From an uncultured Ruminococcus sp. (GTDB lineage: Bacteria; Bacillota; Clostridia; Oscillospirales; Acutalibacteraceae), in assembly GCA_902802105.1 (NCBI GenBank), contig CADCKR010000003.1:42205-106204 (forward strand): a DNA stretch of 64,000 bases, read 5' to 3'. The notes under the pieces were generated by a model that searched no databases, was not told the origin of the DNA, and saw only the letters and a program-made list of their open reading frames with translations. Below are positions 10,628 to 25,891 of this stretch, one piece after another. Each line of letters opens with the position of its first letter. The first letter of the stretch is position 1. The translations under genes were made by a program, and so were the position numbers.

Positions 10628-11701
10628 TTATTTGACAGAAACCTTGCATAATGCGACTCTGCCGGCAGCTGTTGTAACTTTAACGTAGCCTACGCCTGTC
10701 TTTATGGCTTTTACGATCCCGTTGGAATCAACAGATACGACCTTGTCATTTACAGGAGTAAATATAAGCTTTCCGGCGCTTTTGCCGTTGGGAAGAGTTG
10801 CTGTAAGAGCTGTCTTTTCGCCTTTTTTAAGGGTTATTGAAGTCTTATTCAGAGTAAGCTCTCTTGGAAGCTGCTTTACATATACTGTGCATGATGCGGT
10901 CTTGCCGTTGGGCGTTGTAGCCGTAATGACTGCCTTGCCTGACTTGTTGCCGGTGATCTTGCCGGTGGTCGGGTCAACAGAAACTGTCTTGGGGTCGCTT
11001 GATACATACTTGATGCCGTATTTTGATGCGCCCGCATCAACATTGCAGATAACATTTGAATACTGAGCAACATTCAGCGTTATGCTTTTCTTTGCCATTG
11101 TAAGCCTTTTGGGTGCCTTCTGCACGTTGACGGTAATATTTGCCTTCTGTCCGGAACCGACAGACGCCGTAATGACTGCACTGCCTGTATTCCTTGCAGC
11201 AATATTGCCGTTCTTGTCTACCCACACGACATTGCTGTCAGATGAGGTCCACTTGATATTGCCGACATATTTGGTAAGTAAATTTTTGAGCTTTACCTTC
11301 TGGCCTGCGCCGATATTGAGCAACTTCTTGCTGAAATCAAGAGTTACCTCCGGAATTTTCACAACAATATCCGGCTCTATCTTCGCACCGCCCGGAAGGG
11401 TTATGCTCACCTTTGCAGTACCTGTGCTTCCTGCCTTTACAATGCCGTTGTCCTTGGTAACAGTGCTGTTCACGTCACCCGTAACAGTGAGCGAAAGCCC
11501 CGGGATAAGCTTTGATTTAAGTGTCGGCAGTGAAAAAGTACTCGTTTTTACGGCAGATGACGGCGTACCGTCAAAGCTGATGCTCACATCCTCAAAAGTA
11601 TTGGTCTTTACTGCTGCCGATGCAGTAACCGATGCCGTACATCCTGTGATGGTAAGAGCTGCAAGAATTGCTGAAACCGTCCTTTTAAATGATTTTTTCA
11701 T
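10628..11701 (-). CDS. secreted protein of Big_2 immunoglobulin-like domains
   Basis: 357 residues. The N-terminus is a signal sequence (KK, then a hydrophobic stretch to residue 20); ITGC at 18-21 fits a lipobox, so it may be a lipoprotein, but ASA at 28-30 would also suit signal peptidase I. The rest is a series of bacterial Ig-like group 2 repeats, each with a (W/V)xSSDxxVxxVDxxGxxxA-type core (for example KWTSSDSNVVWVDKNGNI). Such domains form stalks or adhesins at the surface. No catalytic domain, sortase motif or dockerin is seen. Promoter at 11809-11837. Its neighbour at 11943 is built from the same domains. Confidence 0.8.
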   Translation of the reverse strand: MKKSFKRTVSAILAALTITGCTASVTASAAVKTNTFEDVSISFDGTPSSAVKTSTFSLPTLKSKLIPGLSLTVTGDVNSTVTKDNGIVKAGSTGTAKVSITLPGGAKIEPDIVVKIPEVTLDFSKKLLNIGAGQKVKLKNLLTKYVGNIKWTSSDSNVVWVDKNGNIAARNTGSAVITASVGSGQKANITVNVQKAPKRLTMAKKSITLNVAQYSNVICNVDAGASKYGIKYVSSDPKTVSVDPTTGKITGNKSGKAVITATTPNGKTASCTVYVKQLPRELTLNKTSITLKKGEKTALTATLPNGKSAGKLIFTPVNDKVVSVDSNGIVKAIKTGVGYVKVTTAAGRVALCKVSVK

Positions 11702-23810: not shown

Positions 23811-23851
23811 ACCTTTAGGATAAATTTAATTGTCAAACATGAAATTTTTTG

Positions 23852-23930
23852 ATAAAAAATTCCCTCACGGAAAGTGCTTCATTATTTCCTGACCGAAACG
23901 GCTGTCGGCGGAAAGCACCTTCCATGAGGG
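23852..23930 (-). terminator. spoVM terminator
   Basis: On the minus strand an 18-bp stem (23913-23930 with 23862-23879) forms with two G-U pairs and no gaps, followed by AATTTTTTATC. The G-U pairs favour RNA from this strand. It begins 5 bases after the spoVM stop. Confidence 0.85.
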
Positions 23931-23935
23931 AGAGA

Positions 23936-24046
23936 TCACCTTACTGTAGTGAGCGGTTCCTGTGCAGCGGACTGCTTTTTAATACCGAACATTCTCCTGA
24001 GAAAGAAGCTCCAGAACTTAGGGTTATCAACAACTACAAACTTCAT
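23936..24046 (-). CDS. spoVM: stage V sporulation protein SpoVM
   Basis: 36-residue amphipathic peptide beginning MKFVVVDNPKFWSFFLRRMF. B. subtilis SpoVM (26 residues) has the same layout: MKF, a short beta-like stretch, a Pro-Lys-Phe turn (here Pro9-Lys10-Phe11), a hydrophobic helix with Arg, then a charged end. It marks the convex forespore membrane and recruits SpoIVA for coat assembly. AAAGGGG lies 8-9 bases upstream and a strong terminator follows. It stands just downstream of thiN, as spoVM does in Bacillus. The extra 10 C-terminal residues are unusual. The gene is too short for normal gene callers. Confidence 0.82.
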   Translation of the reverse strand: MKFVVVDNPKFWSFFLRRMFGIKKQSAAQEPLTTVR

Positions 24047-24061
24047 AAATAAGTACCCCTT

Positions 24062-24211
24062 TCAGAATCTGCGGCAAGGTGAAGCCACAAAGCTTGTCAC
24101 GACCAGCAGCACTGTCACGACAACGGCCACCCAGCAGGCAGGCAGCAGACTTGACACAAGCAGTCCCATGCTGAACGCAAGAATCGTTTTATTTCCTCTC
24201 CGACATCTCAT
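24062..24211 (-). CDS. small membrane peptide encoded upstream of spoVM
   Basis: 49 residues starting MRCRRGNK, then one or two hydrophobic segments (about 10-27 and 27-44) and an Arg-rich end (PCRRF). A GGAGGA site is 8 bases before the ATG, and its stop is 15 bases from the spoVM start, so the two share a transcript between the thiN terminator and the spoVM terminator. I do not recognise a family. The location suggests a role in sporulation, by association only. Confidence 0.6.
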   Translation of the reverse strand: MRCRRGNKTILAFSMGLLVSSLLPACWVAVVVTVLLVVTSFVASPCRRF

Positions 24212-24307
24212 AGTCAATTCCTCCGGCTTGTTTTTATTACCAGCAGTGCTGCGGCGCTTACAGTAACATAATATACAAGACGGACAATGTTTGACACAGC
24301 TTCCTGT

Positions 24308-24377
24308 AAAAAAATTTCCGGCACAGCGGATATTTCACTGAGGGGCATATACCATGACTATTGCATTTCCGCTGTGC
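24308..24377 (-). terminator. terminator of the yicC-thiN operon
   Basis: GCACAGCGGA (24321-24330) pairs with TCCGCTGTGC (24368-24377), followed on the minus strand by CGGAAATTTTTTT. One arm and most of the loop lie inside the end of thiN. Confidence 0.75.
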
Positions 24378-24988
24378 AGAATAACGCAGGCGCTTTCCGA
24401 TATCACCGTGTTGCTTGTGCCCATCGGAAAATCAGCATGGAGCACCGTATTTTCGGCTTTGTAAAGGAACCCTTTAAGCGTAACGGTGCAGCTTTCACAT
24501 CCGAAAGGAAACACCGCAAAGCCGCAGCCGTTCTTTTCTGCGATATGCATTAATTCATCAATGCCGTTTTTGCAGGCGATCACAGAAATACTGCTGTTTT
24601 TGTCCATTATAGTGCCTCTGCCGCCGTGCTGCGCAATAAAAAGCAGAGCCGAATAATTTGCAAAGGTATGGTCTGTTCTGCCGCCCGTCATGCCAAGCAG
24701 CACAAAGTCACGGTACCCTCTGTCAAGGCATTCCCTTATACAGCTCATCGTGTCGGTATCGTCCTTCATCACAGGCAGCAGTTTTATCTCACAGCCGCAG
24801 CCATCCGGATATTCCGATGAATCAAAGTCGCCTATCAGAAGTCCGGGCTTTATACCGGCTTTTTCGGCAAAGACATAGCCGCCGTCCGCGCATACTACGA
24901 AATCATCGTCTCTCACCGCCCTGCGGATAAAGTCAACATCCGTTTCCGGCGATGCGCCTATGATAACACATCTATGCAACAATGACAC
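24335..24988 (-). CDS. thiN: thiamine diphosphokinase
   Basis: About 215 residues; transfers pyrophosphate from ATP to thiamine to give the cofactor TPP. Family motifs: CADGG near 34, LLIGDFDS near 50, DDTDTM near 76, and LLGMTGGRTDHTFANYSAL near 98-115. The frame opens at a GTG (24988), but a TTG two or three codons later sits better behind GAGGG, so the exact start is open. Last gene of the large housekeeping operon, next to rsgA as in Bacillus (rpe, which lies between them there, is missing). Confidence 0.93.
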   Translation of the reverse strand: MSLLHRCVIIGASPETDVDFIRRAVRDDDFVVCADGGYVFAEKAGIKPGLLIGDFDSSEYPDGCGCEIKLLPVMKDDTDTMSCIRECLDRGYRDFVLLGMTGGRTDHTFANYSALLFIAQHGGRGTIMDKNSSISVIACKNGIDELMHIAEKNGCGFAVFPFGCESCTVTLKGFLYKAENTVLHADFPMGTSNTVISESACVILHSGNAIVMVYAPQ

Positions 24989-24994
24989 CCTCTT

Positions 24995-25891
24995 TTACTG
25001 TTTGCTTTTTTTAGCCGCCCATTCAGGGATATCCTTCACCTCGTCATACATAGCCCTGTAGCTGTTGTGCCTTGACTTTGAAATAATGCCGCTTTCAACA
25101 GCTTCAATAACTGCGCAGCCCTTCTCGACCGTATGTGTGCAGGTCGTGAAGCGGCACTTTGTCAGATACTCGCCAAACTCCGGAAAGCACGAGGCTATCT
25201 CATCACATTTTATTACCTCGTATCTTTCGATATCTACCGTTGAAAATCCGGGTGTATCGGCAACATAGCCGCCGCCCACCTTGTAAAGCTCACTGTGGCG
25301 GGTCGTGTGCCTGCCCCTGCCAAGCTTGCGGCTTATCTGAGCAGTTTCTATGTTCAGCTCAGGAAAGAGCGAATTCAGCAGCGATGACTTGCCTACGCCC
25401 GTGTTGCCGGTGAATGCGGATATCTTCCCGTCAAGCAGAGAAATAAGCTCCTGCTTGTCACAAGGCGAATGGATACTGTAGGTCATTGCTTTGATGCCTG
25501 CTTTTTTGTAGATATCAATAAGTCCGCTGCAGTCGCCGAGGTCGGATTTTGTAAACACAACTATAGGCTCAATGCCCTTTTCAACAGCAACAGCGGTTAT
25601 CTTATCAATTATAAGCGTACTCGGAGCCGGCTCGCAAACCGAAGCCACAATAAACAGTCTGTCAAGGTTTGCAAGCGGCGGTCTTATCAGGGTGTTCTTA
25701 CGGGGAAGTATGTTATCCACCGAAGCAGTGCCGTCATCATAGACAGATATTTCCGCACGGTCGCCCACAACAGGACTTACACCCTTCTTTCTGAACACAC
25801 CTCTTGCTTTGCACTCATAAAGCAAACCGGCGACTTCTACATAGTAGAAGCCGCTGATCGCCTTAACTATCAATCCAGTTAAGTTTTTCAT
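24995..25891 (-). CDS. rsgA: small ribosomal subunit biogenesis GTPase RsgA
   Basis: 298 residues, circularly permuted GTPase that checks late 30S assembly. An N-terminal OB fold (1-65) leads to G4 TKSD (114-117), then the P-loop TGNTGVGKSS (161-170) and G3 DTPG (212-215), the permuted order. The C-terminal zinc knuckle has Cys246, Cys251, His253 and Cys259. In the operon between prkC and thiN; in Bacillus RsgA is a PrkC substrate. Confidence 0.97.
   Translation of the reverse strand: MKNLTGLIVKAISGFYYVEVAGLLYECKARGVFRKKGVSPVVGDRAEISVYDDGTASVDNILPRKNTLIRPPLANLDRLFIVASVCEPAPSTLIIDKITAVAVEKGIEPIVVFTKSDLGDCSGLIDIYKKAGIKAMTYSIHSPCDKQELISLLDGKISAFTGNTGVGKSSLLNSLFPELNIETAQISRKLGRGRHTTRHSELYKVGGGYVADTPGFSTVDIERYEVIKCDEIASCFPEFGEYLTKCRFTTCTHTVEKGCAVIEAVESGIISKSRHNSYRAMYDEVKDIPEWAAKKSKQ

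Follow-up and report, generated by a model that had tools for sequence, protein, structure and literature searches.

A 49-residue membrane peptide, here termed p49, is encoded directly 5' of spoVM in the analysed window (the whole stretch of 64,000 nucleotides from an uncultured Ruminococcus sp.); it is selected as a protein, linked to spoVM class-wide in the Clostridia and co-occurs with SpoIVA. Judged by profile comparison, p49 is a member of a previously undefined family of helical-hairpin membrane peptides of approximately 48 residues that is widespread in this class, and p49 and spoVM probably constitute a two-gene sporulation unit in which p49 would be the mother-cell membrane partner of SpoVM and SpoIVA. 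In Bacillus, SpoVM, the textbook example of a tiny peptide sensing membrane curvature, is produced in the mother cell, becomes embedded in the outer forespore membrane and serves as the anchor of SpoIVA. Little is known about the clostridial setting of SpoVM; p49 is a concrete candidate for the missing clostridial forespore-surface factors.

The spoVM locus and its two small genes

The source genome (2.0 Mb in 50 contigs, 89.5% complete) presents the genes of the locus on the minus strand in the order rsgA, thiN, p49, spoVM, terminator and a PAP2 phosphatase gene, with the following features:

24995..25891, minus strand: rsgA, ribosome small subunit GTPase, 5' of thiN (PF03193, E 2.7e-47; TIGR00157 above cut-off)
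24335..24988, minus strand: thiN, thiamine diphosphokinase, upstream neighbour of p49 (PF04263/PF04265 and TIGR01378 above cut-off)
24270..24297, minus strand: promoter-like element GTGTCA-16-TATATT in the thiN-p49 interval, also seen in related species; sigma class unassigned
24219..24224, minus strand: GGAGGA ribosome site of p49 (direct reading)
24062..24211, minus strand: p49, gene of a predicted 49-residue two-helix membrane hairpin (genus conservation, purifying selection, profile of other families, AlphaFold2)
24056..24063, minus strand: ribosome site GAAAGGGG for spoVM, sharing bases with the p49 stop codon (direct reading)
23936..24046, minus strand: spoVM, 36 codons, MKFVVVDNPKFW..., core of residues 1-24 plus variable 12-residue tail (NF033436, genus conservation, dN/dS)
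23855..23931, minus strand: intrinsic terminator directly 3' of spoVM, strong hairpin with T-run (fold of 23850-23945: -43.4 kcal/mol, z -5.9, 200 shuffles)

Both small frames start with ATG and end with TGA, and 15 nt separate the p49 stop from the spoVM ATG; an alternative TTG start 5' of the p49 ATG would add two residues. The preliminary description had already read both frames with their ribosome sites, their spacing and the terminator, and these readings hold, the terminator having escaped listing by a simple consensus scan. It had also placed thiN beside spoVM as in Bacillus: thiN does lie upstream, but is not the direct neighbour because p49 sits between the two. The arrangement suggests that p49 and spoVM share one transcript.

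The 36-residue frame is a genuine SpoVM gene, as had been proposed: it scored 44.9 bits against NCBIfam NF033436 (cut-off 31), and Pro-9, invariant in a 16-row alignment, is present. The genome search with this model gave one match in the window's genome (43.8 bits), and among 14 control genomes only B. subtilis was positive. Pfam held no match for the frame, and a sequence search for a solved SpoVM structure returned two chance-level matches only (E 5.2 and 8.4). An amphipathic helix after Pro-9 is plausible, though by itself the hydrophobic moment does not reach significance (0.461 versus a shuffled mean of 0.336, p 0.23), and the SpoVM partner SpoIVA is encoded in the same genome (E 8.4e-120). 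The start, Pro9-Lys, the basic helix, the position after thiN and the presence of SpoIVA are thus shared with the B. subtilis and clostridial proteins of NF033436, whereas the length of 36 instead of the usual approximately 26 residues with a variable tail, the hairpin gene between thiN and spoVM, and the following PAP2 gene in place of rpmB set the window apart. PMC3533761 notes that annotation seldom recognises SpoVM and that some clostridia yielded no such gene. The former view that both frames lie beyond usual gene calling does not apply to SpoVM, for which a curated NCBI model exists; p49 matches no Pfam or NCBIfam family above cut-off.

SpoVM relatives were present in 56 of the 60 other genomes of the genus, with a median dN/dS of 0.12 (469 unsaturated pairs of 1596; 57 sequences). 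Their length was 29-38 residues in 55 of 57 rows, the exceptions ending at residue 22 by a TGA (L084) or by the contig end (L088). Compared with three near relatives, the core showed 1.0-2.5 non-synonymous changes per approximately 60 sites and the tail 8.0-13.8 per approximately 27 sites, so that the tail appears weakly constrained: the C-terminal extension noted in the preliminary description exists, but its sequence is weakly conserved and varies among relatives. Nine of the 57 genus tails (window, L003, L004, L005, L006, L012, L015, L024, L028) end in V-R or V-K, the remainder of the tail differing, and these shared ends may reflect a weak constraint on the C-terminus.

p49 was found in 57 of the 60 other genus genomes and lies upstream in all 57 genus loci with SpoVM (the window and 56 others; the locus L077 is truncated where its contig stops), at a distance of 10-111 nt and, in 43 of these loci, of 10-23 nt; the turn proline is retained in every one of the 57 rows. 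In the relative L003 all 49 residues are identical to those of the window despite approximately 17 synonymous changes (18.0 synonymous changes per 40.5 sites and 2.0 non-synonymous per 112.5, a count that includes two codons before the ATG, in which both non-synonymous changes fall). The median dN/dS was 0.34 (1194 unsaturated pairs of 1596; 57 sequences), with 99.6% of the values below 1; among close pairs it was below 1 in 61 of 66 (median 0.45). By this substitution pattern, p49 is under purifying selection as a protein. The lack of a synonymous-site pattern among close relatives, named beforehand as the observation that would speak against the two frames, was thus looked for, and such a pattern was found in both genes. 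Both frames are real genes, and their origin as chance frames is ruled out by the selection on, and the conservation of, p49 and spoVM alike. One genus locus (L101, contig G013:C100) exhibited a p49 match with no SpoVM found, owing to loss or an assembly fault. In a separate scan of named genomes, a strongly hydrophobic short frame preceded spoVM in 42 of the 80 loci kept (one of the 42, L210, is doubtful); most of the 80 are MAGs bearing the name Ruminococcus, Oscillospiraceae or Clostridia, and near records may be omitted.

A helical-hairpin family across the Clostridia

An alignment-based search detected SpoVM in 173 of 393 Clostridia genomes, and 102 of these loci (the best ones and at most a few per genus) were read. 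A strongly hydrophobic short frame was located 5' of spoVM in 73; two of them, from family f72, encode another, longer protein, and of the remaining 71 a proline turn was seen in 65. The six frames without it all belong to family f26 (L103, L104, L105, L107, L108, L118); they encode a hydrophobic two-helix peptide that is possibly a diverged form of p49. Loci L182, L186 and L200 of f72 carry the gene of a longer, distinct membrane protein 79-114 nt 5' of spoVM and no p49, and no p49-like frame was seen in the loci read from f31, f48, f35, f37 and part of f26.

In 44 peptides from families other than that of the window, the proline was invariant (44/44). A profile of these other families recognised the window's p49 as the best match of its genome (E 2.5e-5); in 25 genomes of the window's family, the top genome-wide match was the site before spoVM in 24, with E values at this site from 1.4e-9 to 0.06 (second-best in G396). 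As the best match in the whole genome so regularly precedes spoVM, the peptides appear to be homologous and not merely similar in composition. No family of Pfam or NCBIfam exceeded its cut-off for the window's p49 or ten relatives. An RNA element at p49 was considered as well and is ruled out, the sole Rfam match near the gene being at chance level (E 0.7).

The window's p49 comprises a basic N-terminus, a helix, an LLP turn, a second helix and a Cys/Arg-containing C-terminus. The AlphaFold2 model places helices at residues 7-21 and 26-43 with middling confidence (mean pLDDT 69, pTM 0.39), and a Foldseek search with it gave no PDB match. Among 121 hairpins, 99% of the N-termini and 74% of the C-termini carry a net positive charge; this suggests an N-in/C-in hairpin with both ends in the cytoplasm. 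With a median of 15, the hydrophobic stretch ahead of the proline is short, so that the hairpin may enter the membrane only shallowly or as a wedge.

The earlier remark that p49 is no known sporulation protein agrees with the family databases, yet a 50-residue gene of unknown function at the same place, CD25622, has been published for Clostridioides difficile: according to the parts of PMC5607322 consulted, spoVM is co-transcribed behind it under sigma-E control, CD25622 is unique to Peptostreptococcaceae, and an insertion in it, likely polar, resembled spoVM mutants with no further defect. As far as that description goes, p49 and CD25622 are alike in size (49 residues here) and in position directly 5' of spoVM (15 nt here); CD25622 is reported only from Peptostreptococcaceae, whereas p49 occurs in many families of Clostridia. 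CmpA, likewise compared by description (partly that of PMC5607322), shares with p49 that it is short, belongs to the mother cell and takes part in the same SpoVM/SpoIVA process, but is a ClpXP adaptor restricted to Bacillales according to that source, in contrast to a clostridial membrane hairpin. The parts covered of PMC11364881 and PMC13232292 contain no description of the p49 family, and no other account of a gene family 5' of spoVM was recognised in a search of mainly open-access literature; within this coverage, CD25622 is the sole precedent seen. Small-protein catalogues may hold p49 sequences unnamed. New beyond the earlier observation is the class-wide breadth of a hairpin family linked with spoVM and with SpoIVA, and with it a conserved gene pair that has gone mostly unrecognised.

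Linkage to spoVM, rpmB and SpoIVA

At E 0.001, the p49 profile matched 153 of the 393 Clostridia genomes (101 of 220 genera), nearly always at one place per genome. Where both genes could be placed (84 genomes, including all 38 class genomes that gave profile rows), p49 was situated on the same strand and 5' of spoVM in 83, at a match-to-match distance of 13-114 nt. Restricted to the 46 non-source genomes, some of them closely related to profile sources, the adjacent 5' position was found in 45. Contig G192:C38 bears two tandem hairpin matches before spoVM (10808-10945 and 11069-11194).

Among the 64 p49 genomes without a listed SpoVM coordinate, 40 loci were examined with p49 as the beacon (one of them, in G337, did have a match in the SpoVM alignment search). 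A SpoVM-like frame followed just 3' of p49 in 25 of the 40, on the opposite strand in none, and in shuffled sequence at a mean count of 0.4; nine of ten such peptides tested matched the SpoVM model, two of them over the cut-off. p49 thereby served as a practical beacon to SpoVM-like genes that the SpoVM profile had missed. In 13 of the other 15 loci, several without room for spoVM, a convergent rpmB (read by motif in all 13, confirmed by PF00830 in five) came after p49. These 13 genomes gave no SpoVM match in the alignment search, the profile of which misses divergent SpoVM, and all 13 encode SpoIVA. Given the missing SpoVM match and the convergent rpmB after it, p49 is, at the level of detection reached here, retained beside rpmB without detectable spoVM.

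SpoIVA was encoded in 287 of the 393 genomes: in 147 of the 153 with p49 versus 140 of the 240 without a p49 match at E 0.001 (Fisher 6e-19, phylogeny ignored), and, profile-source genomes left out, in 110 of 115 p49 genomes (Fisher 4e-15, phylogeny likewise ignored). In 24 genomes with SpoVM and no adjacent p49, no match was better than E 0.012, weak ones appearing in seven. As many genomes with SpoIVA or SpoVM do without p49, it would not be essential to sporulation as such; by its distribution, p49 is a lineage-specific or replaceable part and not a universal one. Faecalibacterium prausnitzii CNCM I 4541 (L268) and Ruminococcus flavefaciens FD-1 (L269), both usually termed non-spore-forming, possess a SpoVM-like gene without p49, and SpoIVA is encoded in both genomes.

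Candidate roles of p49

In the favoured reading of a two-gene sporulation unit, the mother cell would produce p49 and SpoVM jointly; p49 would adopt an N-in/C-in hairpin topology in the membrane of the mother cell or the outer membrane of the forespore, where it would contribute to assembling or retaining the basement layer of SpoVM and SpoIVA. Co-transcription, topology and cellular location are deductions. The mixed sigma-E scan, the difference between the genus promoter and the element before a putative sipL (both below), and the C. difficile insertion without further defect weigh against this reading. What exactly p49 does, e.g. whether it acts on SpoVM as a partner in the membrane or as a wedge, is guesswork to which we give clearly less than even weight. 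Equally tentative is a wider proposal: p49 might be an ancient, as yet unnamed clostridial part of the machinery at the forespore surface, already present when the class was close to its origin and including CD25622, acting on the outer forespore membrane itself as a second peptide that organises curvature or membrane. Action on the membrane and not merely via SpoVM is suggested by the retention of p49 beside rpmB, with no spoVM found, in several SpoIVA-bearing families. If true, this would partly explain that C. difficile depends far less on SpoVM than Bacillus does.

A role in proteolysis appears unlikely. Here p49 and SpoVM would both be small hydrophobic ligands of the membrane protease FtsH, or p49 would shield SpoVM from it, in either case timing the assembly of coat and cortex; p49 is a short membrane peptide, and B. 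subtilis SpoVM reportedly interacts with FtsH (Cutting 1997, by its title). The persistence of p49 at a locus where no SpoVM was found argues against it, so that p49 is probably not solely a protector of SpoVM.

Slightly less probable still is that p49 is a vegetative membrane peptide and only by chance a neighbour of spoVM, with no role in sporulation. The promoter-like element of the genus indeed resembles a sigma-A site. The promoter scan that gave GTGTCA-16-TATATT found five sites in the region (shuffles: mean 3.0), and the relaxed form GTGTCA-N14-20-TATA.TAT occurred in 22 of 57 genus loci versus 1 of 73 class loci; a search for a regulon with the promoter pattern gave 22 sites in five genomes, the reversed pattern 18; in four of the five genomes the site at p49 was among them. 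A sigma-E consensus scan of 130 upstream regions against 100 shuffles, also compatible with a vegetative peptide, was mixed in outcome: 35 sites scored at least 9 (shuffle mean 25.5, maximum 36) and 21 at least 10 (mean 10.3, maximum 18, i.e. above every shuffle), whereas two scored at least 11 (shuffle mean 2.7) and one at least 12 (shuffle mean 0.45), and no site was found in the window or its nearest relatives. Six of the 153 p49 genomes are furthermore without a SpoIVA match. Against a chance neighbourhood stand the presence of SpoIVA in the other 147 and the adjacency to spoVM in 45 of the 46 genomes outside the profile sources.

That p49 is a mere leader frame, the translation of which sets spoVM output while the peptide is inert, is very improbable: the 15-nt gap, with a ribosome site for spoVM that shares bases with the p49 stop codon, and the similarly short gaps of 10-23 nt in most genus loci, would suit coupled translation, but selection operates at the amino-acid level, the proline is kept in all 57 genus rows, gaps reach 111 nt, and p49 is retained even at loci that gave no spoVM. 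A role as a small hydrophobic toxin or bacteriocin can practically be dismissed, for although size, hydrophobicity and weak matches to models with toxin names (E 0.76-0.97) recall one, these matches are far under the curated cut-offs, p49 occupies nearly always a single place per genome, and no credible Rfam match lies near it.

A further upstream element was seen at the gene of the SpoVM partner: in the majority of the 17 genomes inspected, spoIVA closely follows another gene, a putative sipL, and a AATATAAATTCATAGA-like element, unlike the p49 promoter of the genus, precedes this putative sipL in 10 of 12 upstream stretches (L334-L345).
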